DNA from: Dokdonella koreensis DS-123
GTDB taxonomy: Bacteria; Pseudomonadota; Gammaproteobacteria; Xanthomonadales; Rhodanobacteraceae
Assembly (NCBI RefSeq): GCF_001632775.1
Contig: NZ_CP015249.1
Coordinates: forward strand, 3,700,686-3,764,685
DNA: 64,000 nucleotides
Direction: 5' to 3'
Shown: positions 30,664-56,811 of the stretch, piece after piece
How the letters are laid out: each line of letters begins with the position of its first letter
How positions within the stretch are numbered: the stretch's first letter is position 1
Notes under the pieces: generated by a model
What the model saw: only the letters and a program-made list of their open reading frames with translations
Database searches by the model: none
Told to the model about the DNA's origin: nothing
Program-made: the position numbers and the translations under genes

Positions 30664-33600
30664 TCATTGCGTGACCGGCGCCAGCCAGGGCCGCTCGTCG
30701 CCGACCACGGTGCGCAACCGCACCGGCAGCGCGTTGCGGTCGTGGGCCAGCGGTGCCGGCGCTGCGCCGGCGCTGCCGACATACAGATAGCCGCGTGCCT
30801 CGCCGGCCTGCTGCCAGCCCAGCTCAAGCGGGCCGGCGCCCGGCGTCAGCGGCTGCCAGCCGCTGCGCGCAGCGCGTCCATCGGCATCGCGGACGGTGAC
30901 GCGCACGGCAGGCTGCGCGCCCAGGCGGACCAGGTCGATCGCGAACAGCGCCTCGCCGCTGCCGGCCTGGCCGACGGCGACGCGCACCGGCAGTGCGCCG
31001 AGCCGGCCGACGAGGTCCGCGTCCGGCAGCAGGCTGGCGCCGACGAAGCCCGCTGCGTCCGGCGCATCCAGCGCCTGGTCGGCCTCGGCCTGCTCGAAGT
31101 CGTCGCGGAACAACACGATCAGCGTCGCCGTGTCGCTGGCGCTGTTGTTGGCCGGATTCGGGTCGGTCACACCGGGCGCCACCGTCGCGGTGACCGCGTT
31201 GACGATCGGCTCGTCGTCGGCACCGGCCTGCACCGTAGCCGAGTACAGGTAGGTCACCTGGCTGCCGGCCGGCAACGTGACGGTGTCGCTCAAGACCTCG
31301 CCGCTGCCGTCGGCGCAGGTGGCGCCGCCGGTGGTGGTGCAGACCCAGGTGCCGTCGGCCAGCACCGCCGGCAGCACGTCGCTGACCGTCGCGGTCGCCG
31401 CGGCCGGCCCGGCATTGCTGACGGTGATCAGGTAGTCGAGCGTCTGGCCGACCTGCACGAAGTCGCGCCCGTCGGTGATCGTCACCGCGACGTCCGCCTG
31501 CGCCGGCAGGGTCACCGCCGTCGTGGCCGTAGCGCTGTTGTTGCCGCCCGCCGGATCGGCGGTGGCCGCGGTCACGGTCGCGGTGTTGGTCACGGTCGTT
31601 CCACCGGCATCGGCTGCCACGGCGACCACCAGGGTAAACACCGCCGAGCCGACCGCCATCGTCGGCTGCTGGCAGGTCACGGTACCGCTCTGGCCGATCG
31701 CCGGCGTCGTGCACGACCAGCCGGACGGCGCGCCCAGCGACGTGAAGCGGACCGCGGACGGCAAGGCATCGGTCAGCGTCACCGACGCCGCGCTGTCCGG
31801 ACCGGCATTGGCGAGCGTGATCGTGTAGGTCAGCGCGCCGCCGGCCTCGACCGGATCGGGCGCGTCCACCAGCATCACCGAAAGATCCGCCTGCGGCGCC
31901 GATACCGTGGTCGTCGCCGTCGCGCTTCCATTGCCCGGCACCGGGTCGAACGTCGTCGAGGTGGCCGAGGCGGTGTTCGTCACGCTGCCGCTGGCGTCCG
32001 CCGCCACGTCGGCGACCAGGGTGAACACGGCGCTGCCGACCGCCATCGACGGCCGCTGGCAGCTCACCGTGCCGGCCTGGCCGGCGGCCGGCGTCGTGCA
32101 CGACCAGCCGGCGGGCGATGTCAGCGACGCGAAACGCAGCGATGCCGGCAAGGCGTCGGTCAGCGTCACCGCGGCTGCGGCGCTCGGGCCGGCATTGGTC
32201 AGCGTGATCGTGTAGGTCAGTGCCGCACCGGCAGCGACCGGGTCCGGACTGTCGAGGAGGGTGACGGCCAGATCGGCCGCGGTGTCGACGCCGACCGTCT
32301 CGGTGGCGCTGTTGTTGGCGGTGGCCGGATCGGCCGTCGCCGAGGTGACGGTGGTCGCGGCGGCCAGCGTGCTGCCCTGTGCCAGGTCCGCCGCGACGGT
32401 GACCGCCAGTGTGAAGGCCGCGGTGCCCGGCGCGAACGTGGCCAGCGTGCAGGTCACGGTACCGGCGGTACCGACCGCGGGTGTCGTGCAGGTCCAGCCG
32501 GCGGCGCCGGAAAGCGTGGCGAACCCGGTGCCGGCCGGCAGGGCCAGCGTCCAGCTCGCGCTGCTGGCCGACGCGGGGCCGAGGTTGCGGACCTCGATCG
32601 CGTAGGTCAGCGTTCCGCCCGCCAGGACCGGATCGGGCGTGGCGCTGGCGCTGATCGCCAGGTCGGTCGATACCGCATCGGCGAAGAGGCCGACCAGGAC
32701 CGGATCGTGGTCGGACACGCGGTAGGGGCTGGCCGGCTCGAACAGCACGCGCGGCGGCGTCAGCCCCGAGCCGTCGGGCTTCTCCTCGTAGTCCGGCTCG
32801 CCGGTATCGCGTACTTCGTCGTTGTAGTCGAACAGCGGCACCTCGTCGGCGTTGATGTGCCAGACGCCGATGCCGGCGACCTGGGTGTCGAGCGCGGCAT
32901 TGGCCAGCGCGTAGTCCAGGTGGCCGAGCTGGCCGTCGAACAGGTACGAGTACGCGGCCGGGCCGAGCCGGTCGGCGATCAGGTCGACATAGCTGCCACC
33001 GGCGAGCGTCGTCATCGGGGTTTCGCGCGCATAGGAGTTGAAATCGCCGAGCAGCAGCACGTCCGGGTCGCCGGCGGCCGGTATCACCGTGCCGTTGATC
33101 CAGGTCAGCAGGCGGCTGGCCTGCTGGTTGCGCCGGCTGGCGAAGCACGCCTGGCCGTCGCCGGAATCGGCATCGGCACCGCTGGCGCCCGAGCAGCCCT
33201 TGGACTTGAAGTGGTTGGCGACCACGGTGAAGCGCTCGCCGAACGCCGGATTGCCCGCATCGACCACGTCGAAGGTCTGCGCGGTCGGCGGCCGGTTGTG
33301 GATCGCGTTGAGATCGACCTGTGGCGCACCGACCGGCGAGAGCACGCCGGAGCGGTAGATCAGCGCCACGCGGATCGCATCGCTGCCGAGTGCGCCGCCG
33401 GTGTTGACGTAGGCATACGGATGGCTGCCGCCGCAGCGCGCGTTGACCGCGCCGAGCAAATCGGTGACGGCGGCCGAGGTCGGGTGGTTCTCGATCTCGA
33501 CCAGGCCCACCACGTCGGCGTCGAGGCCGCAGACCACCAGCGAGGTGCGCTCGCGCTGGCGCACCAGTTCGGCGGCGCTGTCGGCGCCGCGGCAATCCAT

Positions 33601-36042
33601 CGTGCCGGACGGGCCGCAGGGGCCGGACGAGGTGCTGGCGGTCGTGTCGATCGTCGAGAAGTAGTTCAGCACGTTGAAGCCGGCCGCCTTGATCGCGCCG
33701 GGCACCACCGGCGCCGTCGCCGGGCGCGGGTTGGCGACGGTGAACGTCGCCGGACGCGCCGTCGTCGGCCGGATGCGCCAGGCATCGGTGCCGGTGAAGC
33801 CGGCGAAGGACCAGTGCAGCACGCCGGTGAGGTTCTGCACCTGGTCGCCGCCGCGGAAGAAGTCCGTGCCCTGCACGCCGACGCCGAGGCCGCCGTTGGC
33901 CCGCGGGTGGTAGATGTACTGCTGGCCGTCGGGCTGGGTCAGCGAGACGTTCTCGGTGTTGTTGTCGTCGTCGAGGATCACGCGGCGGCGCGCGAGCTCC
34001 GCCAGGTGGGCGTTGTAGGCGCTGGCGCCGGGGGCGTGGTCCTCGGTGAACTGGCGCGGCCGCTCGCCCTGGTACAGCGTGATCTGGCCGAACCGCGCGA
34101 GCTGGAAGTACTCGGACACCGCCAGCGAATCGACGTAGGTCACCAGCATGCCTTCGCGCGCTTCGTAGAACGCGTCGACGTCGCCGCTGATCGGCAGCGT
34201 GATCGGCGTGGGCGTGACTTCGTCGAGGTGGTTACCGGTCGAGGTCACGACCACCGCCGCTGCCGTCGTGGCATTGAGCTGCGTCATGCCGAAGTATTCG
34301 GAGACCGTGCCGGAGACGCGCACGCGCTGGCCTTCGGCCACGCCGACCGGGCAGGCGCCGCAGTAGACGAAGATGCCTTCGGACGTGGCCGGATTGGCAT
34401 CGGCGTCGGCGTCCTCTTCCTGCAGGAAGAAGCCCGACAGGCGGCCATTGCCCTGGTAGCTGGCGGTGACGACGCCTTCCACCGAGACCGTGACGCCGGC
34501 CGCGATCGGCGTGGCGGCGCCGCTGCCCTGGAGGTCGTGGATGCGATGCGAGGTCGGCGGCGCGTCGTCGTTGAGGATCGTGCCGATGCCTTCGGCGACC
34601 ACGGCCACGGCGTTGACGACGTTGCTGACCCGCACGTAGAAGGTTTCGTCCGGTTCCGGCGTCGTGTCGCCGTTGACGGTGACGGCGAAGCTGTAGCTGT
34701 CGGTGCCGGCCGCGATCGTCTGGCCGGTCAGCGACCGCGCGATGTAGTCCGACGGCGCCGTCGCGCTGCCGTCCGCCGTGGCGATGTCGAAGCTGACGCC
34801 GCCCGCGGGGGCGGGCTCGGTCAGGCTCACGGTGAACGTGAACGCCTTGGTGCCGCTGTTGCCCTCGGTCTCCGAGACGCTGTCCACGCGCAGCAGCACG
34901 CCGGCGTCGTCGTTGACGATCAGACCGATGCCGGTGTCGTTGGCGACGCTCGCGCCGACCACGTTGGACACGCGGACCAGGAACACCTCGTCGTCCTCCG
35001 GCACGGTGTCGCCGTTGACCAGGACGGTGTAGGTCGCGCTCGACTGGCCGGCGGCGATGGTCTGACCGGTCAGCGACAGCGCGGTGTAGTCGGACGGCGC
35101 GGTCGCGGTGTCGTCGATCGTCGCGAGGTCGAAATGGACGCCGCCGGCCGGGGCCGGTTCCGACAGGCTGACCGTGAACGTGAAGGCCGTCGTGCCGGTG
35201 TCGCCCTCGTCGAGCGTCACGTCGTCGATGCTGAGTTCGGGACCGGCGGCTTCACCGTGCGCAGTGACCGAGAAGTCGTCGATCGACAGGCCATGATCGG
35301 CGCCGGTGTGATCCGGATCGGCGAAACGCAGCATGACCTCGCTGCCAGCCGGGATGCTGAGGCCGGTGATCGTGAAGGCCTTGGCCGTGCGGTTGGCGGC
35401 CAGGTTGCCGTTGAGCGCGCCCGCCGTCCCCGTGGTTACCGGGCTGGTGAAGTCGAGCGCCGTCACGGCGACACCGGTCGACTGGAATTCGGCCAGCGTG
35501 CCGGTCACCGACGGATTGCCGATCAGGTACGAGAACGTGATCGTCTGCTGCGCGGCCGTACCGGTCGCGCCGCTGTTGCGCCACTGCTCACCGGTGAAGG
35601 CGACGTCCAGCGAGGTGATCGTCGTGCCGGTCGCATTCTGCAGCCGCACGCCCCAGAACAGGTTGCCGACGGCGGCATTGCCCGAGCCGAGCGAGCCGAG
35701 TGCGCGATCGCTGCTGCCGCTGGCGCCGTAGCTGTAGAGGTTGCCGGCGTTGCTGGCGCCGGTATCGGCGACGATCGTCGTGCCGGTGCCGACCCGCGCG
35801 TGGAACCATCCGGGTATCGTCGCGTTGTTGGTCCAGGTCGTCGAGCCGCTCGCCGGCAGGCCGTTGAAGTCCTGCGTGTACGGCGTATCGAGCGCGGTCA
35901 GCGCGACCTGTGCCGCGGCCGGTGCCGTGCCGAGCGCGAGCGCCGCCAGGGCCAGAGCCCGGCCGAACCGATTGCGGCGCGCGAGCGCGCGCTCATGAGC
36001 ACCGCCCTCCCGGGGCGGGCAGGCGAAACGAAGCAGGACCAC
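30664..36042 (-). CDS. ExeM/NucH-type extracellular endonuclease with Calx-beta and DUF11 repeats
   Basis: 1792-residue secreted nuclease. The GTG at 36042 is preferred because AAGGAG lies six bases before it. It gives a long basic N-region and a signal peptide ending TAPAAAQ (about residue 45). In order come an ExeM-type N-terminal domain (about 50-265, YTQDFNGLPASG), two Calx-beta domains (about 270-490), an OB-fold region (about 500-620), and an endonuclease/exonuclease/phosphatase domain (about 780-1110) with VGLVEIENH, VVANHFKSKG, LLLGDFNSY and SDHDPVLVG as metal and catalytic motifs. Four DUF11 repeats (about 1118-1640, each with TYxIxxxNxGP) follow, and then a 140-residue C-terminal domain that starts at FRDDFE. 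Family members degrade extracellular DNA, for example in biofilms. Confidence 0.9.
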   Translation of the reverse strand: MVLLRFACPPREGGAHERALARRNRFGRALALAALALGTAPAAAQVALTALDTPYTQDFNGLPASGSTTWTNNATIPGWFHARVGTGTTIVADTGASNAGNLYSYGASGSSDRALGSLGSGNAAVGNLFWGVRLQNATGTTITSLDVAFTGEQWRNSGATGTAAQQTITFSYLIGNPSVTGTLAEFQSTGVAVTALDFTSPVTTGTAGALNGNLAANRTAKAFTITGLSIPAGSEVMLRFADPDHTGADHGLSIDDFSVTAHGEAAGPELSIDDVTLDEGDTGTTAFTFTVSLSEPAPAGGVHFDLATIDDTATAPSDYTALSLTGQTIAAGQSSATYTVLVNGDTVPEDDEVFLVRVSNVVGASVANDTGIGLIVNDDAGVLLRVDSVSETEGNSGTKAFTFTVSLTEPAPAGGVSFDIATADGSATAPSDYIARSLTGQTIAAGTDSYSFAVTVNGDTTPEPDETFYVRVSNVVNAVAVVAEGIGTILNDDAPPTSHRIHDLQGSGAATPIAAGVTVSVEGVVTASYQGNGRLSGFFLQEEDADADANPATSEGIFVYCGACPVGVAEGQRVRVSGTVSEYFGMTQLNATTAAAVVVTSTGNHLDEVTPTPITLPISGDVDAFYEAREGMLVTYVDSLAVSEYFQLARFGQITLYQGERPRQFTEDHAPGASAYNAHLAELARRRVILDDDNNTENVSLTQPDGQQYIYHPRANGGLGVGVQGTDFFRGGDQVQNLTGVLHWSFAGFTGTDAWRIRPTTARPATFTVANPRPATAPVVPGAIKAAGFNVLNYFSTIDTTASTSSGPCGPSGTMDCRGADSAAELVRQRERTSLVVCGLDADVVGLVEIENHPTSAAVTDLLGAVNARCGGSHPYAYVNTGGALGSDAIRVALIYRSGVLSPVGAPQVDLNAIHNRPPTAQTFDVVDAGNPAFGERFTVVANHFKSKGCSGASGADADSGDGQACFASRRNQQASRLLTWINGTVIPAAGDPDVLLLGDFNSYARETPMTTLAGGSYVDLIADRLGPAAYSYLFDGQLGHLDYALANAALDTQVAGIGVWHINADEVPLFDYNDEVRDTGEPDYEEKPDGSGLTPPRVLFEPASPYRVSDHDPVLVGLFADAVSTDLAISASATPDPVLAGGTLTYAIEVRNLGPASASSASWTLALPAGTGFATLSGAAGWTCTTPAVGTAGTVTCTLATFAPGTAAFTLAVTVAADLAQGSTLAAATTVTSATADPATANNSATETVGVDTAADLAVTLLDSPDPVAAGAALTYTITLTNAGPSAAAAVTLTDALPASLRFASLTSPAGWSCTTPAAGQAGTVSCQRPSMAVGSAVFTLVADVAADASGSVTNTASATSTTFDPVPGNGSATATTTVSAPQADLSVMLVDAPDPVEAGGALTYTITLANAGPDSAASVTLTDALPSAVRFTSLGAPSGWSCTTPAIGQSGTVTCQQPTMAVGSAVFTLVVAVAADAGGTTVTNTATVTAATADPAGGNNSATATTAVTLPAQADVAVTITDGRDFVQVGQTLDYLITVSNAGPAAATATVSDVLPAVLADGTWVCTTTGGATCADGSGEVLSDTVTLPAGSQVTYLYSATVQAGADDEPIVNAVTATVAPGVTDPNPANNSASDTATLIVLFRDDFEQAEADQALDAPDAAGFVGASLLPDADLVGRLGALPVRVAVGQAGSGEALFAIDLVRLGAQPAVRVTVRDADGRAARSGWQPLTPGAGPLELGWQQAGEARGYLYVGSAGAAPAPLAHDRNALPVRLRTVVGDERPWLAPVTQ
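31093..31110 (-). other. C-terminal FRDDFE motif of the nuclease
   Basis: Encodes FRDDFE directly after the last DUF11 repeat, 142 residues before the end. It marks the start of a C-terminal domain shared with the RCC1/lamin-tail protein, where the motif is HRDGFE at 49128-49145. The delta-60 protein ends in FADDFEP. Confidence 0.6.
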
Positions 36043-36717
36043 GGACTTCTCCTTGGAAGCGAACGGTTGCAATCGACGAAATCCCCACGCCCACGCCTTC
36101 GCCTTGCCACGAAGGCGACGCCAGAGCACCGCGGCGATGGTGGTCGGCCGATGCGACACCGTCATGACGCCTGACCGATCCGGCGGCGCCACAGTCCCCC
36201 TGCAGAACCGCATGATGCCGGGTTTCCGAAGCGCCGGCGAAACGCCACCGCGCTGCGACCGTCCGTGGGGAAAAGCCGCTGCGCGTCACACTTCCCGATG
36301 TGCACCGGCAACATTCGCGAAAACGCGAAGCCGTTCCTGAAAACCCTTCGCACCCGGGCGCAGGAGTTGCTTCCTGGTAGCCATGACCCACCGCGCCTCG
36401 TTCGCTTCCCCGCCCGGCCTCGCGCATGCAGCGCCTGCAAGGCCGTGCGCAGCGCGGCGAGGACGGCATCCGGCGGATGTACGCGACACCGGCGTAGCGG
36501 CCCGGGCCGGCGCGACGCGGCGCGTCGCTTGTCGACAAATTGCGCGCGGGTATGACCCGCCGGCGCGTCCGGCCCCAGGCGCTTCGTCGCGATGCGATCA
36601 CCGGCCCTCGTGCCGGCACCGCCCCGGACCAGGACCTTCTTCAACCACCCTGCGCGATCCACGAGGCGACGTCCGCAGCGGAACCGACCTGTCGCTTCGA
36701 TCCCAAGGAGAACACCC
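36043..36717. other. 675-base divergent region between nuclease and roadblock-like gene
   Basis: No gene is supported. Open frames here have no family resemblance and read like GC-rich shadow sequence. The nuclease Shine-Dalgarno (AAGGAG on the minus strand) is at 36049-36054, and the roadblock gene site AAGGAG is at 36705-36710. A short CGCGAAAACGCG palindrome lies near 36316-36328. It is long for this compact genome and probably holds two promoters. Confidence 0.5.
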
Positions 36718-45700: not shown

Positions 45701-48239
45701 GGACCGGGTACTGCTGCTGGCGGTGGCGCGGGTCGTGCTCAGCGACAAGAACGGCAGCTTCGGCGAGCAGCTGCGGCGCCGCGCGATCGGTGACCCGACG
45801 CCGCCGCGGCTGCTGCCGCGCGAGAACCCGCCCGTGTCCGCGGCAGTCGAACCCGAGCCGGCGCCGTCACCGGCGCTCGACAACGGCCTGGGCGGCTTCT
45901 CCGAGGACGGCCGCGAGTACCTGATCGTGAGCCGCCCCGGGGAGACGACGCCGGCCCCCTGGTCCAACGTCATCGCCAACGAGCACTTCGGCTGCGTCGT
46001 CAGCGAAAGCGGCATGGGCTACACCTGGCACGAGAACGCACACGAGTACCGCCTGACGCCGTGGCACAACGACCCGGTCACCGATGCCGCCGGCGAGGCG
46101 TTCTACCTGCGCGACGAGGACAGCGGCCGCTACTGGTCGCCGGCGCCGCTGCCGGCTCGCGGCAGCGGGCCGTACACGACGCGGCACGGCTTCGGCTACA
46201 GCGTGTTCGAGCACGTCGAGGACGGCATACGCAGCGAGCTGCGCATCTACGTGGCGCCGGACGCGGCGGTGAAGTTCTTCGTGCTGCGGCTGCGCAACCT
46301 GTCCGGCCGGCGCCGGGCGCTCTCGGCGACCGGCTACGTCGAATGGGTGCTCGGCGACCTCGCCGAGAAATCGGCGATGCACGTCGTCACCGAGCTCGAT
46401 CCGCGCAGCGGCGCGCTGGTCGCGCGCAACCGGTTCCATCCGGAGTTCGGCGAACGGGTGGCCTTCTTCGACGTCGACGAGCCGGCCCGCACGCTGACCG
46501 GCGACCGCCTGGAGTTCATCGGCCGTAACGGCACGCTGGCGCAGCCGGCGGCCCTGCAGCGCCAGCGCCTGTCCGGCCGGGTCGGCGCGCTGATGGATCC
46601 GTGCGCGGCGATCCAGATCCCGTTCGAGCTGGAGGACGGCCAGTCGCGCGAACTGATCTTCCGGCTCGGCGCGGCGGCCCAGGCCGACGACGCCAGCGCG
46701 CTGATCCTGCGCCTGCGCCAGCCGGGTACCGCGCGCGACGCGCTGGAAGCCGTCCGTGCGCGCTGGGCCGACCTGCTCGGCGCGGTGCAGATCGCCACGC
46801 CCGACCGCGCGCTCGACCGGCTCGCCAACGGCTGGCTGCTCTACCAGGTGATCTCGGCGCGGCTGTGGGCGCGCAGCGGCTACTACCAGTCCGGCGGCGC
46901 GTTCGGCTTCCGCGACCAGTTGCAGGACGCGATGGCGCTGGTGCATGCCGCACCGCGGCGGCTGCGCGATCAGCTGCTGCTGTGCGCATCGCGGCAGTTC
47001 AAGGAGGGCGACGTGCAGCACTGGTGGCACCCGCCCGCCGGCCGCGGCGTGCGCACGCGCTGTTCGGACGACTACCTGTGGCTGCCGCTGGCCTGCTGCC
47101 GCTACATCGCCTGCGGCGGCGACCGCGCCGTCCTCGACGAGACCCGGCCGTTCCTGGAAGGCCGGCCGCTCAACGCCGACGAGGAATCCTACTACGACCT
47201 GCCGCTGCGCTGGGACGACCACGCCACGCTGTACGAGCACTGCGTGCGTGCGATCGAGCACGGCCTGCGCCTGGGCGCGCACGGCCTGCCGCTGATCGGC
47301 AGCGGCGACTGGAACGACGGCATGAACACCGTCGGCAGCGCCGGACGCGGCGAAAGCGTCTGGCTGGGCTTCTTCCTGCACCGCGTGCTGGTCGATTTCG
47401 CGCCGCTGGCGCGCGATCGCGGCGATGCGGCCTTTGCGGAACGCTGCGAGACCGCGGCGGCGGTGCTGCGCGAGCAGCTCGACCGGCACGGCTGGGACGG
47501 CGGCTGGTACCGGCGCGCCTATTTCGACGACGGCACGCCGCTGGGTTCGCAGCGCAACGCCGAGTGCCGCATCGACTCGATCGCGCAGAGCTGGGCGACG
47601 CTGTCCGATGCCGCTCCCGCCGCGCGCGCGGCACAGGCGCTCGACGCGCTCGACGCGCAACTGGTCAAGCCGGACGCCCGGCTGGTCCAGCTGCTCACCC
47701 CGCCGTTCGACGGTGCCGGGCCGGACCCGGGCTACATCCGCGGCTACGTGCCCGGCGTGCGCGAGAACGGCGGCCAGTACACGCACGCGGCGATCTGGGC
47801 GGCGATGGCCTTCGCCCAGGCCGGACGCACCGCGCGCGCCTGGGCGCTGTTCGACATGATCAACCCGCTGCACCATGCGCGCACGCGCGAGGAAGCGGAG
47901 GTCTACAAGGTCGAGCCGTACGTGGTCGCGGCCGACGTCTACGCGGTCGCGCCGCATACCGGCCGCGGCGGCTGGACCTGGTACACCGGCTCGGCCGGCT
48001 GGATGTACCGCCTGGCGATCGAGTCGCTGCTGGGCATCCGCCGCGAGGGCGCGCAGCTGCGCATCGATCCGCGCCTGCCCGCCGGCTGGCCCGGCTTCCG
48101 CTTCAGCTACCGCTACGGCGGTACGACCTATCGCGTGGCGGTCGTCGTCGGCGACGGCCCGGTCGCGCCGGGCGGCACCACGCTGGCCCTGGTCGACGAC
48201 GGCGGCGAGCACGCGGTCGAGGTGGTGGTCGCACGCTGA
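39759..48239 (+). CDS. ndvB: Cyclic beta-1,2-glucan synthase (GT84-GH94 multidomain)
   Basis: 2826 residues, almost exactly the length of NdvB/ChvB. It makes cyclic beta-1,2-glucan from UDP-glucose at the inner membrane. The GTG start has GAGG upstream. In order: an N-terminal cytosolic region (1-400), two helices (about 409-471), the GT84 glucosyltransferase (about 487-820, VLDADTQLPHG near 627, then RRRHRWIRGDWQ), several helices (about 824-990), a glycoamylase-like domain (about 1040-1480, TRTSPTNIGLSLLAAL, GTLPPGQRC-like region), and a GH94 phosphorylase part with two substrate-binding modules (about 1570 and 2069) and the catalytic GSGDWNDGMN, where the general acid is expected among D2517/D2520. 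Periplasmic cyclic glucans serve osmoadaptation and host interaction. Confidence 0.95.
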   Translation: MKLPLGSWNRWLTGPKAADTRSLLAAEIEQPLRAELFSTEQMEEHGAVLARFHRLYGGRSRNRLLARLADNEAALLQTCDLLNAAIREGRRVTPASEWLLDNYYLIDEHLRTARRHFPQGYSWQLPRLANGVSAGLPRIYDIALNAISHGDGRFDQESLHRFVAAYQRVAPLSLGELWAIPIMLRLALIENLRRVAMRVMLDRRHRDLAAVWGETMAQVAARDPKSLILAVADMARSDPPASSSFVAELMQRLQGQSASLALPVSWLEQRLAEAGVTIEQLVQSENQQQAADQISVSNSIASLRLLLSTDWRRFVEGLSRMEAILHTDPAGVYPAMDFATRDTYRHVVERLARRAARPEEDVAAAAIALAAAHAATPDAPQAHVGWYLIGEGRPVLRRACGLRAALRRPPLSLYLGTLAVLTATLVAAPALWLLRTPTSLGLALATIGLLTLAASQLALTMTHWLTAIVTVPQALPRMDYSRSIPADAATLVAVPLLIGDEDAAREAIADLEIRYLANRQEHLYFGLLSDFPDAASEHTDGDEAILAAAVAGIEELNRRHAGERGGPFFLFHRPRRWNAGEGAWIGEERKRGKLGALNALLRSGDASRFSRIVGTVDALQGINYVIVLDADTQLPHGAAHELVATMRHPLNRPRFAPDGSRVVAGYGILQPRVGTALTLAGLSRYATLFGGDPGLDPYTRAVSDVYQDLFGEGSFTGKGIYDVEAFERALGQRLPDNRILSHDLLEGSYVRAGLASDLVLFEDFPQSYAADIRRRHRWIRGDWQIACWLLPWVPGSDGRHEANPLSGLARWKIFDNLRRSLVAPALFALLVLGWTVLPAPGYWTAIVLQLVLVPVLVEALLAAARKPAEAAWRRHLGFAVRSAGRRLGQALFALACLPFEALVAVDAIVRTLWRLFVSRRHLLAWTPSNMVQRSLGAGPAHMLRQMAFSPLAALGIGGSVAWLQPAALLPALPFLLVWLLAPWIAWHVSRPPRPAQTTLDPRYQPLLRDVARRTWHFFERHVDSSDNWLPPDNYQEQPDGILATRTSPTNIGLSLLAALAANDLGYLSLRSLLERITATFDTLDRLERHRGHFYNWYDTRSLAPLPPRYVSTVDSGNLAGFLLTLRQGLLGLADYAPSRARLLPGLIDTATVLRSLAPAPLQPSVTRFLQTAAEAEARCNAGPCNLAAILAVLEQEARTVLEAAPDTDAADWARRLVVQCAEAVEELQVFAAAPAASLAELAGTGSATAITWLGVARQLAERAAGFARPDYGFLHDRARDLFSIGFNVDDHRRDLGYYDLLASEARLGIFVAIAQGQVSPKSWFSLGRLLTQAGGAPVLLSWSGSMFEYLMPNLVMPAYPGSLLEHTGRAAVTRQIAYGRERDVPWGISESGYLLTDAAQNYQYRAFGVPGLGLQRGLAQELVIAPYASALALLAAPDAAAENLQRMAGQGWLAPQGFYEAIDYTGTRLPPGQRCAVVRSFMAHHQGMALLAIEHVLLDRPMQRRFEADPQVQSALLLLQERLPRATGQPARDPKLVDARNAGEAAAVPLRVFDRPDPAVPAVQLLSNGRYHLMLSSAGGGYSRWRSIALTRWREDPTRDDWGSFCYLRDLGSGRVWSTAFQPTLEADETYEAVFTEARVEFRRRLDDWETHTEIVVSPEDDIELRRTRITNRAATARTIEVTSYAEVVLAPAISDSLHPAFSKLFVQTEIVASRNAIVCSRRPRDAHDQPPWMFHLLAVHEGQSLGTSFETDRARFLGRHGSPARAAALAPGADLSGTAGSVLDPIVAIRSRIRVPPDQTVLVDLVTGVGASRDQCLQLADTYHDRRLADRVIDLAWTHSQISLRQINISEAAAQTYAHLAGRLLYSHASLRAEAQLVVRNRRGQPGLWTYAISGDLPIMLVQVSDEAHLDLAREAVQAHAYWRMKGLVVDLVIWNEERGGYRQSLNDALMGMIAASVDANVLERPGGIFVRAVEQIPHEDRVLLLAVARVVLSDKNGSFGEQLRRRAIGDPTPPRLLPRENPPVSAAVEPEPAPSPALDNGLGGFSEDGREYLIVSRPGETTPAPWSNVIANEHFGCVVSESGMGYTWHENAHEYRLTPWHNDPVTDAAGEAFYLRDEDSGRYWSPAPLPARGSGPYTTRHGFGYSVFEHVEDGIRSELRIYVAPDAAVKFFVLRLRNLSGRRRALSATGYVEWVLGDLAEKSAMHVVTELDPRSGALVARNRFHPEFGERVAFFDVDEPARTLTGDRLEFIGRNGTLAQPAALQRQRLSGRVGALMDPCAAIQIPFELEDGQSRELIFRLGAAAQADDASALILRLRQPGTARDALEAVRARWADLLGAVQIATPDRALDRLANGWLLYQVISARLWARSGYYQSGGAFGFRDQLQDAMALVHAAPRRLRDQLLLCASRQFKEGDVQHWWHPPAGRGVRTRCSDDYLWLPLACCRYIACGGDRAVLDETRPFLEGRPLNADEESYYDLPLRWDDHATLYEHCVRAIEHGLRLGAHGLPLIGSGDWNDGMNTVGSAGRGESVWLGFFLHRVLVDFAPLARDRGDAAFAERCETAAAVLREQLDRHGWDGGWYRRAYFDDGTPLGSQRNAECRIDSIAQSWATLSDAAPAARAAQALDALDAQLVKPDARLVQLLTPPFDGAGPDPGYIRGYVPGVRENGGQYTHAAIWAAMAFAQAGRTARAWALFDMINPLHHARTREEAEVYKVEPYVVAADVYAVAPHTGRGGWTWYTGSAGWMYRLAIESLLGIRREGAQLRIDPRLPAGWPGFRFSYRYGGTTYRVAVVVGDGPVAPGGTTLALVDDGGEHAVEVVVAR

Positions 48240-48677: not shown

Positions 48678-51600
48678 TTAGTCGGCGTCGCCTTCGGGCG
48701 CGACGACCAGCGGCAGGGCCGACCGCAGCCGGTAGGCGACGGGCTGTCCGGCCAGCGGAAGCTGCAGCTCGGCACCGGCGACGCGAAGCCGTGCCGTCGG
48801 CGCGCCGGTCCCGCCGCTCGCGTCCTCCGGACGCGGTGCCGGCACCAGCGCCAGGCGAAGCTCGGCACCCGCGACCACCGCCAGCCAGCCGGTGGCATAG
48901 GCGTTGCCGCCTTCGTCCTGCGCGACCAGCCGCAGCCAGGTACGCACCCCGTGATTGAGCCGTTCCAGGCGGAACGCCCCGGATGCCGGCTGCAGGCCGT
49001 CCGGTACCGCTGCCAGCACGGTCTCGATCAGCGGCTGGCCCGGTGCCGGCCAGGTCAGGCCGAGCGTATCGCCGGTGGCGAGGGACGCGCTCACCGCGTC
49101 CAGCGGCAATGCACCCGGGTTCTCCGGCTCGAAGCCGTCGCGATGGATCACGACCTGGCCGGAGACCTCGGCCGTGTTGTTGCCCAGGTTCGGATCGCGA
49201 TCGTCCATGGCCTGGGCCTGCGTCGTCACCGCGCCATCGGCTTCCCAGCGCACCGGTGCACTCACCAGGTAGCTGACACTGCCGCCGACCGGAATCGTCA
49301 GGCCGGCATCCCCGAGGTTGCCGGTGCCGCTGGCCGTACAGCCGCTGCCGGCCGCGTCGATGCACAGCCACGTGGCGAAGTCGAGATCCAGCGCCGGCGA
49401 CAGGCTGCTCGCCACGCTGGCTGCGGTGGTCGGGTCCGGACCGAGGTTGCTGACGGTGACCACGTAGTCGAGCAGCTGGCCGCGCTGGGCGTAGTCCAGA
49501 TGGGCGACCAGGCCGACCGCCAGGTCGGTCTGGGGTACCGGCACGCGGCCGACGCCCTGCAGGCCGAGCGTGGCGGTGACGCCGCCGGCGCTGCCGACGC
49601 CGAGCACGGCGGTCGCCGGTCCGGCGGCGGTCGGCGCGAAGCTGACGACGACCGCGCAGCTGGCCTGGGCCGGCAGCACGGTACCGCAGGCACTGGTGTC
49701 GGCCGTGAAGGCGCCGCCCGGTGCGGTGAAGTTGAGCTCGCTCGCGTCCGCCGCGCCGGTGTTGCGCAAGGTGGCGGTCAGCGGCGTGGCGGTGGTGCCG
49801 GTCTGGACCTCGCCGAAATCGAGGCTCGCCGGGTCGAAGGCCAGCACCGGCAACGGCGCGGCGACGAACGTGGCGATGACGTTCTGGTCGGCACTCATCG
49901 CCACCGTGCACGCGGCGCTGCCGCTGCAGGCGCCGCTCCAACCGCCGAACACGAAGCCGGAGGCCGGCGTCGCGGTCAGCTGCACGGCCGTGCCGGCCGC
50001 GTAGCGCTGCTCGCAGTCACCCGGACAGGCGATGCCGTCGCCGCTGACCAGGCCCTGGCCGGCGCCTTCGATCGCCACCGTCAGCAGGTACTCGGTGACG
50101 CTGCCGCACGGATCGTAGGCGACGCCGGCGCGCGTGCTGCGACCGGGGCTGCCGATTGCGCCGTTGTTCGAGGTCACCGAGCCTTCGCCGTCGGCGACCG
50201 CCGACAGCGTCCAGGCGAACACGTCGTCCGCGCCGAGACCCGCCGCCGACACCCAGCCGCTGGCGCCGGTCGTGCGAATGCTGCCCGGGAACGCCTGGTC
50301 GCCGTAGGTCAGGCGGTCCACCAGCGTGCCGCTGGCGTCGAAGAGGTTGATCTGGTCGGCGCGACCGAGGTTGTTGGTGTAGCCACCGAGGATCTTGGCG
50401 CCGGCGCACAGGCGCCAGTCGCTGCGGAACGCCTCGGTCTCGCTCTCGGCCAGCACCACCGACTCGCCCGGCTGCACGCTGCCGAAGCCGCTGAGGTCGA
50501 AGCCGATCGCCGGATCGGCGCTGTCGTCGTCGTAGCGCCAGCCGGTCATGTCGACCGCCGTCGTGCCGACGTTGGTCAGCTCGATGAACTCGCCGCCGGC
50601 GCCGTCGTACATCCATTCCGTGATGCGCATCGCCGGCCGGTCCGTCGGCACGGCGGCCAGCGTGAACGCCTGGCTGTAGGACTTCTGGTAGACCTGCTGC
50701 AGATCCTTGGTGGCACCGGTGCCGTAGAAGTTGGTGTCGCCGCTGTCGGTGATGACGCGCACGGTCGCGCCCTCCACCAGCGGATGCGGCACCGCGCCGA
50801 TCGCCTCCCAGGCGCCGCCGGTCAGGCCGTCGTCGCTCGGCAGGGTCTGGTTGAACTGCGGCGCATGGTCCGGACGGCCGTCCCAGGTGTAGAGCGCCCA
50901 GGACTCGTTCTGCGGCGACGGACCGGCCGAGATCAGGTAGTCGCCCTGGGCATTGGACGCCAGCGCGCGGATGCTGCGGCCGCCGAGGTCGAGGAAGATC
51001 GGCGCGCCGAACACCGCCGGGCCGCTGCCGGGCGTGCCATTGGTGAGCGCGGCAGCGTTGAGCAGCGGCACGATCAGCGCATCGTAGCGACCTTCGCGCT
51101 GGATCGTCGGCGCGCGAAAGCCCAGGTAGACCGCCGAACCGTCGGGATTGAACTCCAATCCCTCGATGTTGAACCCGCCCGGCGCATTCGGCAGCACGCC
51201 GCCGGCGGTGGCGGCAATGAAGCCCAGCGCATTGGCGCCCAGGCCGTGGCCGTTGGTCTGGTCCCAGGCGCGCAGTTCCGCCCACAGGTTGTTGTAGCGG
51301 CCGCGGAACACCAGCTCCGTCCCGGCACCCGAGCCGGTGATCGTCGCCGCCACGAAGGTGCGGCGCTCCGGCCGCGCCGAGCCGCTGCGGTTGTTGCCGT
51401 GCGAGCCGGTCAGCAGCAGCAGGTCGCCCGAACGCGTGATGCCCTCGAAGTCGATCTCCGAGCTGGTCCCGAGCTGTGATGCGTTGAACGCCCAGGTCTT
51501 GACCGGCCGTCCGGTCTCGCCCGCGCGGTGCAGGAAGATCGTGTTGGTCTCGTCGTTGAGCAGGATCACGTAGCCATCACCGACGTCGAGCGCGGCCGAA

Positions 51601-54290
51601 GCGTCGCTGATGTGGTGGTGGTAGCGGCCGCTGGGGTCGGGTGCCTGCGTCGAGGAAGCGTACTGCAGCGTCGCCGACTGGCCGTTGCCGTCCGGGTCGG
51701 TGACGATGAAGGTCACATTGGAAAGGCCGCGCCCCACCGGCGCGAACGTCACGGTCCGCTCGGCGCCCTCGCCCGAAAGGGTCACGCCGGCCGGCGTGAT
51801 CACGGACGCGTTCGCGGTCGTCACCTGGATCGTCAGGCCGGCCAGCGGGCTGTCCGGATCGGCGATCGTCAGCGTGGTGCCGAGGTTGGTCGGATCACCG
51901 ACCGAGCCCACGACGATCGAATCGGCAGCCGTGATCGTCGGCGGCAGGCCGGTCACCGGCGCGAACGGCTCGACGAGCGTCGGCACCAGTGAAGGATCGG
52001 CCGTGAGCGACGGCCCGTTGCCCTGCTGGCCCTGGTCGTCGCGGCCCCAGCAGTAGAAGCGGCCGGCCGCGGTGGCGCCGCAGGTGAGGTTGTTCTCGGC
52101 ACTCAGTTCGGTGAAGACCGTTCCGGGCGGCAGCGTCGCCGTTGCCACCGGATGCGGGCTGTAGCGCGAGGTACCGTCGCCGGTGCCGAGCGCGCCCCAG
52201 TTGGCGAAGCCCCAACAGTAGGCCGCGCCGGTGTCGAGGATGCCGCAGGTATTGGTACTGCCGCCTTCCAGCGCGATGAAATGCGTGCCGGCCGGGATCG
52301 TCGTCGTCACGACCGGATTGGGCAGCAGGATGTCCAGGCTCTGCGCGCCGTTGCCGACCGCGCCGTTGATGCCGGCGCCCCAGCAGTAGGCGACATCGCC
52401 GGTGGTCAGCGCACAGCTGTGGCTGTCGCCGGCGGTCACCGCCGCGAAGTGCGTCCCCGCCGGCAGTCCCGAGGTGACGACCGCGCTGATCGGAAGGTCG
52501 GTCTGGCCGCTGGTGCCGATGCCGAGCTGGCCGTTGCCGTTGCGACCCCAGCAGTAGAGGTTGCCGTCGCTGGCCAGGCCGCAGGTATGGCCGGATGCCG
52601 CGCTGAGCGAGACGAACGACGTATCGGCCGGCAGCCGCGCCATGTCCACCGGCGACGGGCTGGCCTGGTTGCCGGTGACGCCGGCCGGCAGGCCGAGCGG
52701 GCCGCTGCGGCCCCAGCAATACGCGGTGCCGGTCTCGGCGATGCCGCAGGCATGCGTGGAGCCGGCCGCCAGCGAGACGAAGCCCTTGCCGGCCAGCGGC
52801 GTCATGTCGACGGCGACCGGGGCGGGCTGGTTGGCGGTCACCGCCGCGCCGTTGCCGAGCTGGCCGTACTCGTCCTGTCCCCAGCAGTAGGCCAGGCCGT
52901 CGCTAGTCAACCCGCAGGCGAACGACATGCCCGCCACGATCGACGCGAACCGCGTTCCGGCCGGCAGGCCGGTCAGGTCCACCGGATACGGGCTGACCAT
53001 GTTGGACGTCACGGCCGCGCCATTGCCCAGGCGCCCCCCCGCATCCGATCCCCAGCAATAAGGCAAGCCGCCGGCATCGAGTCCGCAAGCGAACTGCGAA
53101 CCGGCCGCGATCGTGGCCAGCACCGGCGCCGGGCCGCCGCCGTCGCACGGATCATAGGCCGTGCCGGCGCGCGTGCTGCGGCCGGGGTTGCCGATCGCGC
53201 CGTTGTTCGAGGTCACCGAGCCTTCGCCGTCGGCGACCGCCGACAGCGTCCAGGCGAACACGTCGTCCGCGCCGAGACCCGCCGCCGACACCCAGCCGCT
53301 GGCGCCGGTCGTGCGAATGCTGCCCGGGAATGCCTGGTCGCCGTAGGTCAGGCGGTCCACCAGCGTGCCGCTGGCGTCGAAGAGGTTGATCTGGTCGGCG
53401 CGACCGAGGTTGTTGGTGTAGCCACCGAGGATCTTGGCGCCGGCGCACAGGCGCCAGTCGCTGCGGAACGCCTCGGTCTCGCTCTCGGCCAGCACCACCG
53501 ACTCGCCCGGCTGCACGCTGCCGAAGCCGCTGAGGTCGAAGCCGATCGCCGGATTGGCGCTGTCGTCGTCGTAGCGCCAGCCGGTCATGTCGGCCGGCGC
53601 AGTGCCGACGTTGGTCAGCTCGATGTACTCGCCACCGGCACCGTCGTACATCCACTCCGTGATCCGCATCTGCGCCTGGGCGCCACCGCCGCACGGGTCA
53701 TAGGCCGTGCCGGCGCGCGTGCTGCGACCGGGGCTGCCGATTGCGCCGTTGTTCGAGGTCACCGAGCCTTCGCCGTCGGCGACCGCCGACAGCGTCCAGG
53801 CGAAGACGTTGTTCGCACCGAGGCCCGCCGCCGATACCCAGCCGCTGGCACCGGTCGTGCGGATGCTGCCCGGGAACGCCTGGTCGCCGTAGGTCAGGCG
53901 ATCCACCAGCGTGCCGCTGCCGTCGAAGAGGTTGATCTGGTCGGCACGGCCGAGGTTGTTGGTGTAGCCGCCGAGGATCTTGGCGCCGGCGCACAGGCGC
54001 CAGTCGCTGCGGAACGCTTCGGTCTCGCTCTCGGCCAGCACCACCGACTCGCCCGGCTGCACGCTGCCGAAGCCGCTGAGGTCGAAGCCGATCGCCGGAT
54101 TGGCGCTGTCGTCGTCGTAGCGCCAGCCGGTCATGTCGACCGCCGTCGTGCCGACGTTGGTCAGCTCGATGAACTCGCCGCCGGCGCCGTCGTACATCCA
54201 TTCGGTGATCCGCATCTGCGCCTGGGCGGCGCTGGCGGACAGCACGAGCAACAATCCGGCGGCCAGCCGGTATGTGCGAACAAAAGCCAT
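48678..54290 (-). CDS. Giant secreted protein: lamin-tail domains, RCC1 propeller, DUF11, C-terminal FE-motif domain
   Basis: 1870 residues with a Sec signal peptide (about 1-25, SASAAQAQ). The start is at 54290 because GGGGAG precedes it. Domains in order: two lamin-tail domains (about 26-200 and 208-382, MRITEWMYDGAGGE), seven RCC1-type repeats each with an ACGL...YCWG Cys pair (about 385-770), a cadherin-like segment plus a DUF3616-like esterase/propeller region (about 772-1217, IDFEGITRSGDLLLLTGS), a third lamin-tail domain (about 1221-1395), a divergent InlB B-repeat (GFVFGGWSGACSG), an ASH/choice-of-anchor-like domain, one DUF11 domain, then a 150-residue C-terminal domain opened by HRDGFE. 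It is probably an extracellular or surface structural protein. No catalytic residues are evident. Confidence 0.88.
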   Translation of the reverse strand: MAFVRTYRLAAGLLLVLSASAAQAQMRITEWMYDGAGGEFIELTNVGTTAVDMTGWRYDDDSANPAIGFDLSGFGSVQPGESVVLAESETEAFRSDWRLCAGAKILGGYTNNLGRADQINLFDGSGTLVDRLTYGDQAFPGSIRTTGASGWVSAAGLGANNVFAWTLSAVADGEGSVTSNNGAIGSPGRSTRAGTAYDPCGGGAQAQMRITEWMYDGAGGEYIELTNVGTAPADMTGWRYDDDSANPAIGFDLSGFGSVQPGESVVLAESETEAFRSDWRLCAGAKILGGYTNNLGRADQINLFDASGTLVDRLTYGDQAFPGSIRTTGASGWVSAAGLGADDVFAWTLSAVADGEGSVTSNNGAIGNPGRSTRAGTAYDPCDGGGPAPVLATIAAGSQFACGLDAGGLPYCWGSDAGGRLGNGAAVTSNMVSPYPVDLTGLPAGTRFASIVAGMSFACGLTSDGLAYCWGQDEYGQLGNGAAVTANQPAPVAVDMTPLAGKGFVSLAAGSTHACGIAETGTAYCWGRSGPLGLPAGVTGNQASPSPVDMARLPADTSFVSLSAASGHTCGLASDGNLYCWGRNGNGQLGIGTSGQTDLPISAVVTSGLPAGTHFAAVTAGDSHSCALTTGDVAYCWGAGINGAVGNGAQSLDILLPNPVVTTTIPAGTHFIALEGGSTNTCGILDTGAAYCWGFANWGALGTGDGTSRYSPHPVATATLPPGTVFTELSAENNLTCGATAAGRFYCWGRDDQGQQGNGPSLTADPSLVPTLVEPFAPVTGLPPTITAADSIVVGSVGDPTNLGTTLTIADPDSPLAGLTIQVTTANASVITPAGVTLSGEGAERTVTFAPVGRGLSNVTFIVTDPDGNGQSATLQYASSTQAPDPSGRYHHHISDASAALDVGDGYVILLNDETNTIFLHRAGETGRPVKTWAFNASQLGTSSEIDFEGITRSGDLLLLTGSHGNNRSGSARPERRTFVAATITGSGAGTELVFRGRYNNLWAELRAWDQTNGHGLGANALGFIAATAGGVLPNAPGGFNIEGLEFNPDGSAVYLGFRAPTIQREGRYDALIVPLLNAAALTNGTPGSGPAVFGAPIFLDLGGRSIRALASNAQGDYLISAGPSPQNESWALYTWDGRPDHAPQFNQTLPSDDGLTGGAWEAIGAVPHPLVEGATVRVITDSGDTNFYGTGATKDLQQVYQKSYSQAFTLAAVPTDRPAMRITEWMYDGAGGEFIELTNVGTTAVDMTGWRYDDDSADPAIGFDLSGFGSVQPGESVVLAESETEAFRSDWRLCAGAKILGGYTNNLGRADQINLFDASGTLVDRLTYGDQAFPGSIRTTGASGWVSAAGLGADDVFAWTLSAVADGEGSVTSNNGAIGSPGRSTRAGVAYDPCGSVTEYLLTVAIEGAGQGLVSGDGIACPGDCEQRYAAGTAVQLTATPASGFVFGGWSGACSGSAACTVAMSADQNVIATFVAAPLPVLAFDPASLDFGEVQTGTTATPLTATLRNTGAADASELNFTAPGGAFTADTSACGTVLPAQASCAVVVSFAPTAAGPATAVLGVGSAGGVTATLGLQGVGRVPVPQTDLAVGLVAHLDYAQRGQLLDYVVTVSNLGPDPTTAASVASSLSPALDLDFATWLCIDAAGSGCTASGTGNLGDAGLTIPVGGSVSYLVSAPVRWEADGAVTTQAQAMDDRDPNLGNNTAEVSGQVVIHRDGFEPENPGALPLDAVSASLATGDTLGLTWPAPGQPLIETVLAAVPDGLQPASGAFRLERLNHGVRTWLRLVAQDEGGNAYATGWLAVVAGAELRLALVPAPRPEDASGGTGAPTARLRVAGAELQLPLAGQPVAYRLRSALPLVVAPEGDAD
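49128..49145 (-). other. C-terminal HRDGFE motif of the RCC1/lamin-tail protein
   Basis: Encodes HRDGFE immediately after a DUF11 domain, 149 residues before the C-terminus. The downstream domain aligns with that of the nuclease: both have G-x-x-AF-x-[IL]-[DE] near position 50, an R-x-V/L-x-x-D run, then GW and a basic R-x-R-L-R-like end. Confidence 0.6.
50105..50630 (-). repeat. Lamin-tail repeat copy A (526 bp)
   Basis: Third lamin-tail domain of the protein, about 2.5 kb from the other two copies. Its central portion of more than 300 bases differs from copy B at only about one position, while the edges differ more. Confidence 0.85.
53144..53669 (-). repeat. Lamin-tail repeat copy B (526 bp)
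   Basis: Second lamin-tail domain. It is separated from copy C by a 20-base linker, yet is closer in sequence to the distant copy A than to the adjacent copy C. Confidence 0.85.
53690..54215 (-). repeat. Lamin-tail repeat copy C (526 bp)
   Basis: First lamin-tail domain, directly behind the signal peptide. It is the most divergent of the three at synonymous sites (for example GTTCGCACC where A and B have TCCGCGCC). Confidence 0.85.
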
Positions 54291-54627
54291 GGTGGGTACT
54301 CCCCGAAAGAAAAAACGGCGGCGCCGCACGAAGGTGCAGCGACGAAGCGCGGGGAGTGTGGCCGGACATCGTTGCGGTCCCGTGATGCTGGCATGTCATC
54401 GGCGGCCGGGTCCGCCGTACACCGTCGGCGGCTGCGCGCGGGACCGTGGGACGCGGCCGGCGGGCGCCGTTGCGCGCCGGCGGCCGACCCGCAGCGCGGG
54501 GCCCGGCCATGACCGGAAGGCCGGGGTGACACACGGCGGCGCCGTCCTGCGCCCTGGGGCACGACAGACACCCCTCCGCCGCGCGGGTGCAGCCCCCGAC
54601 CGCTTCGACGCCGACCACGGAACCGCC
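54291..54627. other. Divergent promoter region of two secreted propeller proteins
   Basis: 337 bases without a supported gene, between the RCC1/lamin-tail gene and the delta-60 gene. On the minus strand an 8-bp stem (54322-54329 with 54334-54341, loop GAAG on plus) followed by CCGCCG and six T's (54310-54315) lies just before the ribosome site GGGGAG. It could act as a leader attenuator, but the gap before the T-run is not standard. Confidence 0.4.
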
Positions 54628-56811
54628 ATGAACCCGACCCGCACCCCCGTCCCGCTCCGGTGCCTGCCGCTCCGCGCCGCGCGGCGTCCCACTGCGATCA
54701 TCCGTTTCGCCGGGGTCCTCCTCGCGGCGCTCGCCGGGTCGATCCCCGCAGCGGCGCAGAGCCCGGCGCCGCTGCCCCGCCCCGACCTCCACCTGGTCGT
54801 CAACGGCAGCGTCCAGGCGCTGCTGCGGCTGCCCGATGGCAGCCTCGTGTTCGGCGGCACATTCACCTCGGTCAACGGCCAGCCGCGGGCCAACCTGGCC
54901 AAGCTGCGGCCCGACGGCACGCTCGATCCGGACTGGAATCCGGCCCCCGATCGCGAGGTCTATGCGCTCGCCGCCGACACGGCCGGCAATGTCTATGTCG
55001 GCGGCTGGTTCTACGCCATCGGCGGGCAGTCGCGCACGAACCTCGCCAAGGTCTCCGCCACCGGCACCGGCACGGCCGATGCGAGCTGGAATCCGGCGCC
55101 CGATTCGTTCGTCTATGCACTGGCGGTCGATGCCGGCGGCGCCGTCTATGCCGGCGGCCAGTTCGGCATGATCGGCGGCCAGAACCGTGCGAACCTCGCC
55201 AAGCTCGCCGGTACCGGCTCGGGCGCGGTGGACGCGACCTGGGACCCGGCGCCCGATTCCACCGTCCGTGCGCTCACCGTCGATGGCGCGGGCAATGTCT
55301 ATGCCGGCGGCCAGTTCTTCCTGGTCGGCGGCCAGGCCCGCCGGTACATCGCGCGGATCTCGGGTGGCGGCGTGGTCGATGCCACCTGGAATCCGACGGC
55401 CAGCGGCCTGGTCGGCGCGCTGGCGCTCGATGGCGCCGGCGGCGTCTATGCCGGCGGCGAGTTCACGACGATCGGCGGCCAGGCCCGCCCCTATGTCGCC
55501 AAGCTCTCCACGGCCAACGGGACAGTCGATGCCGGCTGGAACCCGGCACCCGATCGCCGGGTCGGCGCGCTGGCCGTCGACGCCGCAGGCCATGTCTACG
55601 CCAGCGGCCTCTTCACGACGATCGGCGGCCAGGCGCGCAATGGCCTGGCCAAGCTGTCCGGCAACGGCAGCGGCGCGGCCGACGCGAACTGGAACCCCTC
55701 GCCCCAGGGCGGCCAGGTCAGCGCGCTGCTGGCCGACGCCGGCCGGGTGTACGCCGGCGGCAGCTTCTTCCATGTCGGTGGCGCCTACCGCCTGGGCCTG
55801 GCCATGCTCTCGGGCAGCGGCGTCGGCGCGCCCGGCGCTGCGGTGGATGCCGAAACACCGGCCCGCGCCGCCTCCCTGCTGCTCGAGCGTCCGTACGGCA
55901 TGCTGGTCGGCGGCGAGTTCCTCAAGGCCAACGGCATCCTGGCGCCGTACGCCTTGCGGCTGAAGAGCGACGGCACGATCGACACCCATCCCAGCGCCGA
56001 CGACGCGATCCTGGCGCTGGTGGCCGCCTCGCTCGGCGAGCCCGGCCCCTTGACGATATCCGGCGTGCTGCGGGCGGTGGTCGCCTTGCCGGACGGCAGC
56101 TTCGTGTTCGGCGGCGCCTTCACCTCGGTCGGCGGCACGCCGCGCAACTACCTGGCCAAGCTGCGGCCCAACGGCACGCTCGACCCGGACTGGAATCCGA
56201 ACGCCGCCGGTGGCGGCGTCTACGCGCTCGCCACCGACGGCGCCGGCAACGTCTATGCCGGCGGCCGCTTCACCAGCGTCGGCGGGCAGCCGCGCAACCG
56301 CCTGGCCAAGATCGCCGGCAGCGGCACCGGAGCGGTCGATCCGGCCTGGAATCCCGGCGCCGACGAGGAAGTCAGTGCGCTCGCCGTCGATGCAGCCGGC
56401 CGCGTCTACGCCGGCGGCAGCTTCACCCATGCCGGCGGCCAGGCGCGCGCGCGACTGGCCAGGCTGGCCGGCACCGGTGCCGGCGCTGCCGATCCGTCCT
56501 GGAACCCCGGTGCCGATCGTGCCGTCACCGCACTGGCGACGGACCCGGCCGGCTGGGTCTACGTCGGCGGCAAGGTGTCGACCGTCGGCGGCATCGGCCG
56601 CGATCGCATCGCACGGCTGGATGCCGCTACCGGCGCCGTCGATCCGGACTGGAACCCGGGCGCCGATGCCGACGTGCTCGCGCTGGCACGCGCGTCGAGC
56701 GGCGTGATCTATGCCGGCGGCCGCTTCGATGTGATCGGCGGCGCATCGCGCAACGGCCTGGCCGCGCTGCCGGCCTCGGACGTGCTGTTCGCGGACGACT
56801 TCGAGCCGTAG
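54628..56811 (+). CDS. Secreted delta-60-repeat beta-propeller protein ending in DDFEP
   Basis: 727 residues. The signal peptide ends about residue 44 (SIPAAAQ). The rest is made of about 13 repeats of 45-50 residues with the pattern (V)YAGGxFxxxGGQxRxxLAKL...WNPxPD, the delta-60 repeat that forms beta-propeller blades. Two halves each open with nearly the same block (LPDGSLVFGGTFTS near residue 66 and LPDGSFVFGGAFTS near 488), so an internal duplication is likely. The protein ends in FADDFEP, the same motif that opens the C-terminal domain of two other giant proteins here, but nothing follows it. Function is unknown and the location extracellular or surface. It is divergent from the RCC1/lamin-tail gene. 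Confidence 0.87.
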   Translation: MNPTRTPVPLRCLPLRAARRPTAIIRFAGVLLAALAGSIPAAAQSPAPLPRPDLHLVVNGSVQALLRLPDGSLVFGGTFTSVNGQPRANLAKLRPDGTLDPDWNPAPDREVYALAADTAGNVYVGGWFYAIGGQSRTNLAKVSATGTGTADASWNPAPDSFVYALAVDAGGAVYAGGQFGMIGGQNRANLAKLAGTGSGAVDATWDPAPDSTVRALTVDGAGNVYAGGQFFLVGGQARRYIARISGGGVVDATWNPTASGLVGALALDGAGGVYAGGEFTTIGGQARPYVAKLSTANGTVDAGWNPAPDRRVGALAVDAAGHVYASGLFTTIGGQARNGLAKLSGNGSGAADANWNPSPQGGQVSALLADAGRVYAGGSFFHVGGAYRLGLAMLSGSGVGAPGAAVDAETPARAASLLLERPYGMLVGGEFLKANGILAPYALRLKSDGTIDTHPSADDAILALVAASLGEPGPLTISGVLRAVVALPDGSFVFGGAFTSVGGTPRNYLAKLRPNGTLDPDWNPNAAGGGVYALATDGAGNVYAGGRFTSVGGQPRNRLAKIAGSGTGAVDPAWNPGADEEVSALAVDAAGRVYAGGSFTHAGGQARARLARLAGTGAGAADPSWNPGADRAVTALATDPAGWVYVGGKVSTVGGIGRDRIARLDAATGAVDPDWNPGADADVLALARASSGVIYAGGRFDVIGGASRNGLAALPASDVLFADDFEP
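56788..56805 (+). other. Terminal FADDFE motif of the delta-60 protein
   Basis: Encodes FADDFE, followed only by Pro and the stop codon. It is compared in the findings with FRDDFE and HRDGFE of two neighbouring secreted proteins. Confidence 0.55.

Follow-up and report, generated by a model that had tools for sequence, protein, structure and literature searches.

Three proteins of the window and their C-terminal ends

The window, a 64-kb stretch of the Dokdonella genome, encodes three proteins that carry a D-[GD]-F-E motif in or near their ends (HRDGFE, FRDDFE and FADDFE). The first is an RCC1/lamin-tail repeat protein encoded on the reverse strand (48678..54329), which begins with a signal peptide (MAFVRTYRLAAGLLLVLSASAAQA) and, according to Pfam, contains lamin-tail, RCC1, VesB-like Ig and DUF11 domains. 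Towards its C-terminus there is a VesB-like Ig domain (PF22544)/choice-of-anchor D region (49584..49850) and, immediately ahead of the motif, a DUF11 domain (49164..49526; PF01345, E 3.4e-7). The motif itself, HRDGFE (49128..49145), is a weak form in which H replaces F and V occupies position -3; it is internal, with the stop 149 residues further, and is followed by an unnamed C-terminal domain of about 149 residues (48681..49127) for which homologues were found. The second protein, an extracellular nuclease also encoded on the reverse strand (30664..36213), contains an ExeM/NucH endonuclease domain (32686..34482; NF033681, E 1.7e-153), and its last DUF11-type (DUF7927) domain (31150..31458) lies ahead of FRDDFE (31093..31110), which is likewise internal, the stop being 142 residues further, and precedes a second, divergent copy of the unnamed domain (30667..31092). 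The third, a delta-60 repeat beta-propeller protein on the forward strand (54628..56811, with the start placed according to its signal peptide, MNPTRTPVPLRCL), carries FADDFE at its C-terminus (56788..56805). None of the three window proteins matched an NCBIfam C-terminal sorting domain above cut-off. Between two of the tagged genes there is a giant ORF on the forward strand (39573-48239; 2888 residues from a TTG start), which by eye has the look of a cyclic beta-glucan synthase/GH94-type glycosyltransferase.

The original prediction had correctly described the RDGFE and RDDFE openings behind DUF11 or DUF11-like domains, as well as the end of the delta-60 protein at FADDFEP, where FADDFE stands one residue ahead of the stop. 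It had also proposed a single small module common to the three proteins, which did not hold: the delta-60 protein has only a nine-residue tag and the tail domain is absent from it. The tag and the tail domain are thus two separate things, and it is the tag that recurs.

The tails of 149 and 142 residues had been aligned by eye, and the alignment was right. Compared pairwise alone they are barely significant (shuffle p 0.01-0.13), and direct pairwise alignment was dropped as proof of kinship, its signal being too weak by itself. Because a profile built from the RCC1/lamin-tail tail and seven further homologues, with the nuclease tail excluded, scores the nuclease tail at 18.7 bits (best of 2000 shuffles, 9.6), the two tails are, judged from profile comparison, members of one remote domain family. 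AlphaFold models of both tails, computed from two-row alignments, consist in each case of a helix followed by a five-strand beta run, at a pLDDT (41-42) too poor to fix the fold. The Dokdonella genome itself encodes a second copy (G000:C1:3038239-3038697, E 6.6e-17) and two additional ones (loci L100 and L099), and homologues were found in genomes G001 (E 7e-8) and G004. A profile search of 349 Lysobacterales genomes recovered the domain in only six, the Dokdonella genome included, belonging to genera g1, g14 and g26 and all to family f1. As had been suspected, no named family covers it, since searches of Pfam, NCBIfam and PDB gave no match.

In every tail homologue inspected the order is constant: a DUF11-like region, a tag or degenerate tag (YRDGFE, FRDGFE, HRDGFD, FQDGFE, FRTGMD, MRSGFD, FRDGYE or FKDRFD) and then the domain up to the protein end. 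It is reasonable to suppose that this domain of about 145 residues was appended later, and in a lineage-specific way, at the C-terminus behind DUF11 and tag. The tail-domain proteins of the window have weaker tags, with no acid at position -3, and may or may not still use them. DUF11 (PF01345) precedes both tag and tail domain in these proteins, yet it is a repeat domain, and most of the tagged proteins examined lack it ahead of the tag.

A nine-residue tag on exported proteins

The tag, of consensus [DE]-x-[LIV]-F-x-D-[GD]-F-[ED] or, put more narrowly, D-x-[LI]-F-A-D-[GD]-F-E, is found mostly at the extreme protein end. A search of the Dokdonella genome with a DNA pattern for [FHYL]-x-D-[GDES]-F-E gave 61 matches, against three for the reversed pattern used as control. 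Fifty-nine of these matches are credible tags, in ORFs of 296-2449 codons encoding exported-type proteins, and the other two lie in antisense ORFs and are false; the predicted restriction to exported proteins was borne out, and cytosolic carriers, which would have spoken against it, are absent. In 48 of the 59 carriers the tag stands 0-10 residues from the stop (median 2), and among these terminal tags conservation extends to two positions that the search pattern leaves free, with D/E at -3 in 43 and L/I/V at -1 in all 48. An additional class ends in FADGFD (nine variants within the stretches examined), and in genome G039 many tags end precisely in FADGFE-stop. Since the tag codons differ synonymously at most positions, selection acts on the protein.

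In the 0-10 residues between terminal tags and the stop there is no hydrophobic helix. The tag was not assigned to GlyGly-CTERM, given that no TM helix follows it and that no NCBIfam C-terminal sorting domain was matched above cut-off in the three window proteins, nor to PEP-CTERM, which has a PEP motif plus a TM helix. A PDZ C-terminal ligand was also rejected, because 0-10 residues follow the motif or the motif is internal or N-terminal.

Matches had been expected to be strictly C-terminal, and this is not the case: about ten tags are internal, and several others stand at the mature N-terminus. In Dokdonella the non-terminal tags are placed between two domains, with the exception of one immediately after the signal peptide (locus 1521230, MKRYLGVLVGVMALTTAQA-RPLFVDGFEPP). 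The same placement was found in genomes G041 (QPIFADGFE) and G059 (QVPFGDGFE), probably in G039, and at locus L157 with the variant FIDEFE; the acid at -3 is often missing from such N-terminal copies. The Dokdonella protein with the tag at its mature N-terminus rather than its C-terminus (L080) is a serine hydrolase of beta-lactamase fold, and L157, from another lineage, may encode a relative of it, with FIDEFE at the same place.

Apart from being exported and tagged, most carriers are unrelated to one another. Among them are S8-type proteases, a metalloprotease, CSLREA-type and other beta-helix proteins, beta-propellers, HYDIN/VesB-like Ig proteins and the beta-lactamase-fold hydrolase, classes assigned by eye from sequence, with Pfam and NCBIfam run for the window proteins only. 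By a strict rule 46 of the 59 carriers have signal peptides, against 89 of 218 untagged neighbours (p 4e-7), and those of the remaining carriers are mostly recognisable by eye; a looser rule gave 57 of 59 and is unreliable, as it also accepted internal starts. A type I secretion signal was rejected, the carriers having Sec signal peptides.

The genes that recur in the neighbourhood of the tags are mainly regulators, and no sorting enzyme was found among them. In 17 of about 53 own-genome tag stretches there is a CadC-like regulator (winged-helix, TM segment and TPR; about 700-950 residues), mostly directly upstream of the tagged gene and on the same strand, forming a recurrent cassette of regulator and tagged protein (loci L071, L081, L084, L096, L100, L102, L107, L109, L111, L115, L116 and L117 among others). 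Genes resembling those for ECF-type sigma factors and Ser/Thr protein kinases, named by eye, also recur near tagged genes in several genomes (L083, L097, L113, L120, L128, L269 and L273). At L070 and L102 of Dokdonella the tagged genes are clustered, in tandem or close to one another, and include paralogues (324956 and 326446; 2585470, 2591042 and 2592650), suggesting duplication-driven expansion with the tag retained.

The three carriers within 26 kb first noticed are therefore an incomplete picture, as this genome has about 60 tagged proteins and the tag extends over much of the Lysobacterales. Among 200 genomes of the order it is abundant in many families (10-53 matches) and near zero in others, and named carriers include Pseudofulvimonas, Chiayiivirga, Wenzhouxiangella, Dokdonella and Tahibacter. 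Outside the order the pattern stays at background, with about 1-2 matches per genome and a maximum of eight (273 good genomes from about 170 gammaproteobacterial families), and matches in other phyla fall in tiny spurious ORFs.

Co-occurrence of the tag with one type II secretion system lineage

Genomes were divided into tag-rich (at least ten tags) and tag-poor (fewer). With the NCBIfam GspG model at 160 bits or more, a high-scoring GspG of the type II secretion system (T2SS) was detected in all 31 tag-rich genomes first tested versus two of 13 tag-poor ones. PF03934 (GspK) was rejected as a T2SS marker, since it cross-matches helix-hairpin-helix proteins, some of them in Bacillus. When the 200 genomes of the order were scored for a canonical GspG (E below 1e-43), those at least 90% complete showed the same association, with 52 of 55 tag-rich versus 34 of 108 tag-poor genomes positive (Fisher p 8e-16, phylogeny ignored). 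The association also holds within family f1, in which canonical GspG is present in four of four tag-rich genomes (13, 15, 32 and 49 tags) versus none of 30 tag-poor ones (0-5 tags). In family f2, 14 genomes have canonical GspG and just one of them (G118) is tag-rich.

In a GspG tree all 29 sampled tag-rich rows fall in one clade (support 94/82). The clade also takes in ten tag-poor rows (six from genus g35, one from G110 and, on long branches, G178, G198 and G091), and it excludes ten of the 13 GspGs sampled from tag-poor f2 genomes. Few tags or none accompany canonical GspG in genus g35 (1-7 matches), in G110, G178, G198 and G091 and in other f2 genomes, and G066, G093, G152 and some incomplete genomes are tag-rich with no canonical GspG detected. 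The tag is nearly always accompanied by one T2SS lineage, and that T2SS can exist without the tag, as one would expect of a tag that is read by the T2SS or by something co-inherited with it. The link is correlational, and the co-variation rests on few independent events.

The T2SS operon of G041 has the order gspG-H-I-J-K-L-M-N, with H assigned from its position, and adjoins bioA and rsmE (both named from sequence appearance), as in other families. When T2SS operons were compared in search of an additional gene specific to the tag, nothing other than G to N was seen; in tag-poor f2 genomes the outlying T2SS loci have diverged too far to be compared by BLAST.

Possible roles of the tag

The suggestion of a lineage-specific sorting or anchoring signal survives in part: the element is lineage-restricted, it is borne by exported proteins and sorting is its best reading, and it is carried by the tag, not by the module. 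We propose that the tag acts as a linear sorting signal whose most likely reader is one T2SS lineage, and give this reading a probability of roughly 0.5. The carrier would first cross the inner membrane via Sec and fold in the periplasm, with the tag in an exposed tail or linker. We infer that a receptor, the likeliest being a component of the T2SS lineage encoded by gspG-H-I-J-K-L-M-N beside bioA/rsmE, would then bind the tag and recruit the protein for passage across the outer membrane to the cell surface or medium. Because the position of the tag is flexible, a docking peptide is favoured over a cleaved anchor, and sortase-type cleavage was rejected on the same ground.

Taken further, this reading implies a common linear T2SS signal, a portable nine-residue motif placed at either mature end or between domains, which, across the Lysobacterales, would mark unrelated Sec-exported proteins, several dozen in each genome, for a single T2SS lineage; taken jointly, these statements fall a little short of an even chance. 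The Sec signal peptides of the carriers and the presence of a T2SS in tag-rich genomes support T2SS reading, and the window carriers resemble T2SS substrates known elsewhere (ExeM-type nuclease, VesB-like Ig-fold). Against it, T2SS substrates are, to our knowledge, generally thought to have no common linear signal. In PelI, an exposed loop of nine residues (loop 3) contacts domains of GspC and GspD and acts as a T2SS signal (PMC7949064), and the Ig-fold of VesB holds a secretion signal that depends on the GspC PDZ domain (PMC12369372). In these proteins, too, it is a nine-residue exposed stretch or a terminal Ig-like domain that brings folded substrates to the T2SS, but such determinants are protein-specific and structural, whereas the tag would be one linear motif on dozens of unrelated proteins.

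The main rival, which we consider unlikely, is that the tag is a surface-retention signal on which an outer-membrane receptor or ligase acts after, and independently of, the secretion system, the T2SS correlation being indirect. Many carriers are indeed of repeat or beta-propeller type, as is typical of cell-surface proteins, the tag sits at the place of GlyGly-CTERM in ExeM relatives (PMC3237569), and tag-poor genera with a T2SS exist. However, no partner gene was found, the tolerance of N-terminal, internal and C-terminal tags disfavours a cleaving ligase such as sortase, and the T2SS association, also that within family f1, would be left unexplained. As a short aromatic-acidic motif located in flexible protein ends and with no fixed position, the tag could also be a recognition peptide for a periplasmic chaperone, protease or quality control, or another docking motif unrelated to export, but such roles would not be expected to track one T2SS lineage or to miss most relatives of the same family, and we regard them as improbable. 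It is very doubtful that the tail domain is the sorting module and the tag there merely a linker remnant: the tag is often degenerate in tail homologues (RTGMD, RSGFD, FKDRFD, HRDGFD) and so may be dispensable in them, but the domain was found in six of 349 genomes of the order, and dozens of carriers per genome, including the delta-60 protein, end at the tag with nothing or almost nothing after it. A DNA-level element or gene-duplication artefact, as the high copy number and the GC-rich core of many copies might suggest, has a negligible chance in view of the synonymous codon variation, the mostly unrelated carriers and the spurious nature of the matches in other phyla.

The sorting signal preferred here has its closest parallel in GlyGly-CTERM/rhombosortase, whose signal is carried by extracellular nucleases (ExeM-type) and trypsin-like proteases in genomes that generally have a T2SS (PMC3237569). 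Similarly, the tag is lineage-limited, C-terminal on unrelated signal-peptide proteins and linked to T2SS genomes, with extracellular nucleases and proteases among its carriers. Unlike GlyGly-CTERM, it lacks a TM helix, Gly/Ser stretch and basic tail, may also occupy internal positions or the mature N-terminus, and marks dozens of proteins per genome instead of up to thirteen. PEP-CTERM/exosortase and MYXO-CTERM/myxosortase are likewise genome-wide, many-to-one systems for exported proteins, but their signals are tripartite (motif, TM helix and basic end), whereas the tag consists of nine residues, has no TM helix and often forms the protein end. Literature searches for the motif string and for sorting signals in these genera found nothing, and we found no paper or family model describing the tag. 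A genome-wide sorting tag on exported proteins is a known kind of signal, and what is new, as far as we know, is a tag of nine residues that has no membrane helix, is flexible in position and is linked to a T2SS.

How the T2SS chooses its substrates is a long-standing open question. A defined nine-residue motif on about 60 proteins, co-varying with one T2SS lineage even inside single families, makes this question directly testable. Whatever reads it, the tag would represent an undescribed sorting signal on a sizeable set of exported proteins in an environmental bacterial order; it would make exported surface proteins predictable from sequence alone during annotation, and it could serve as a portable export tag.
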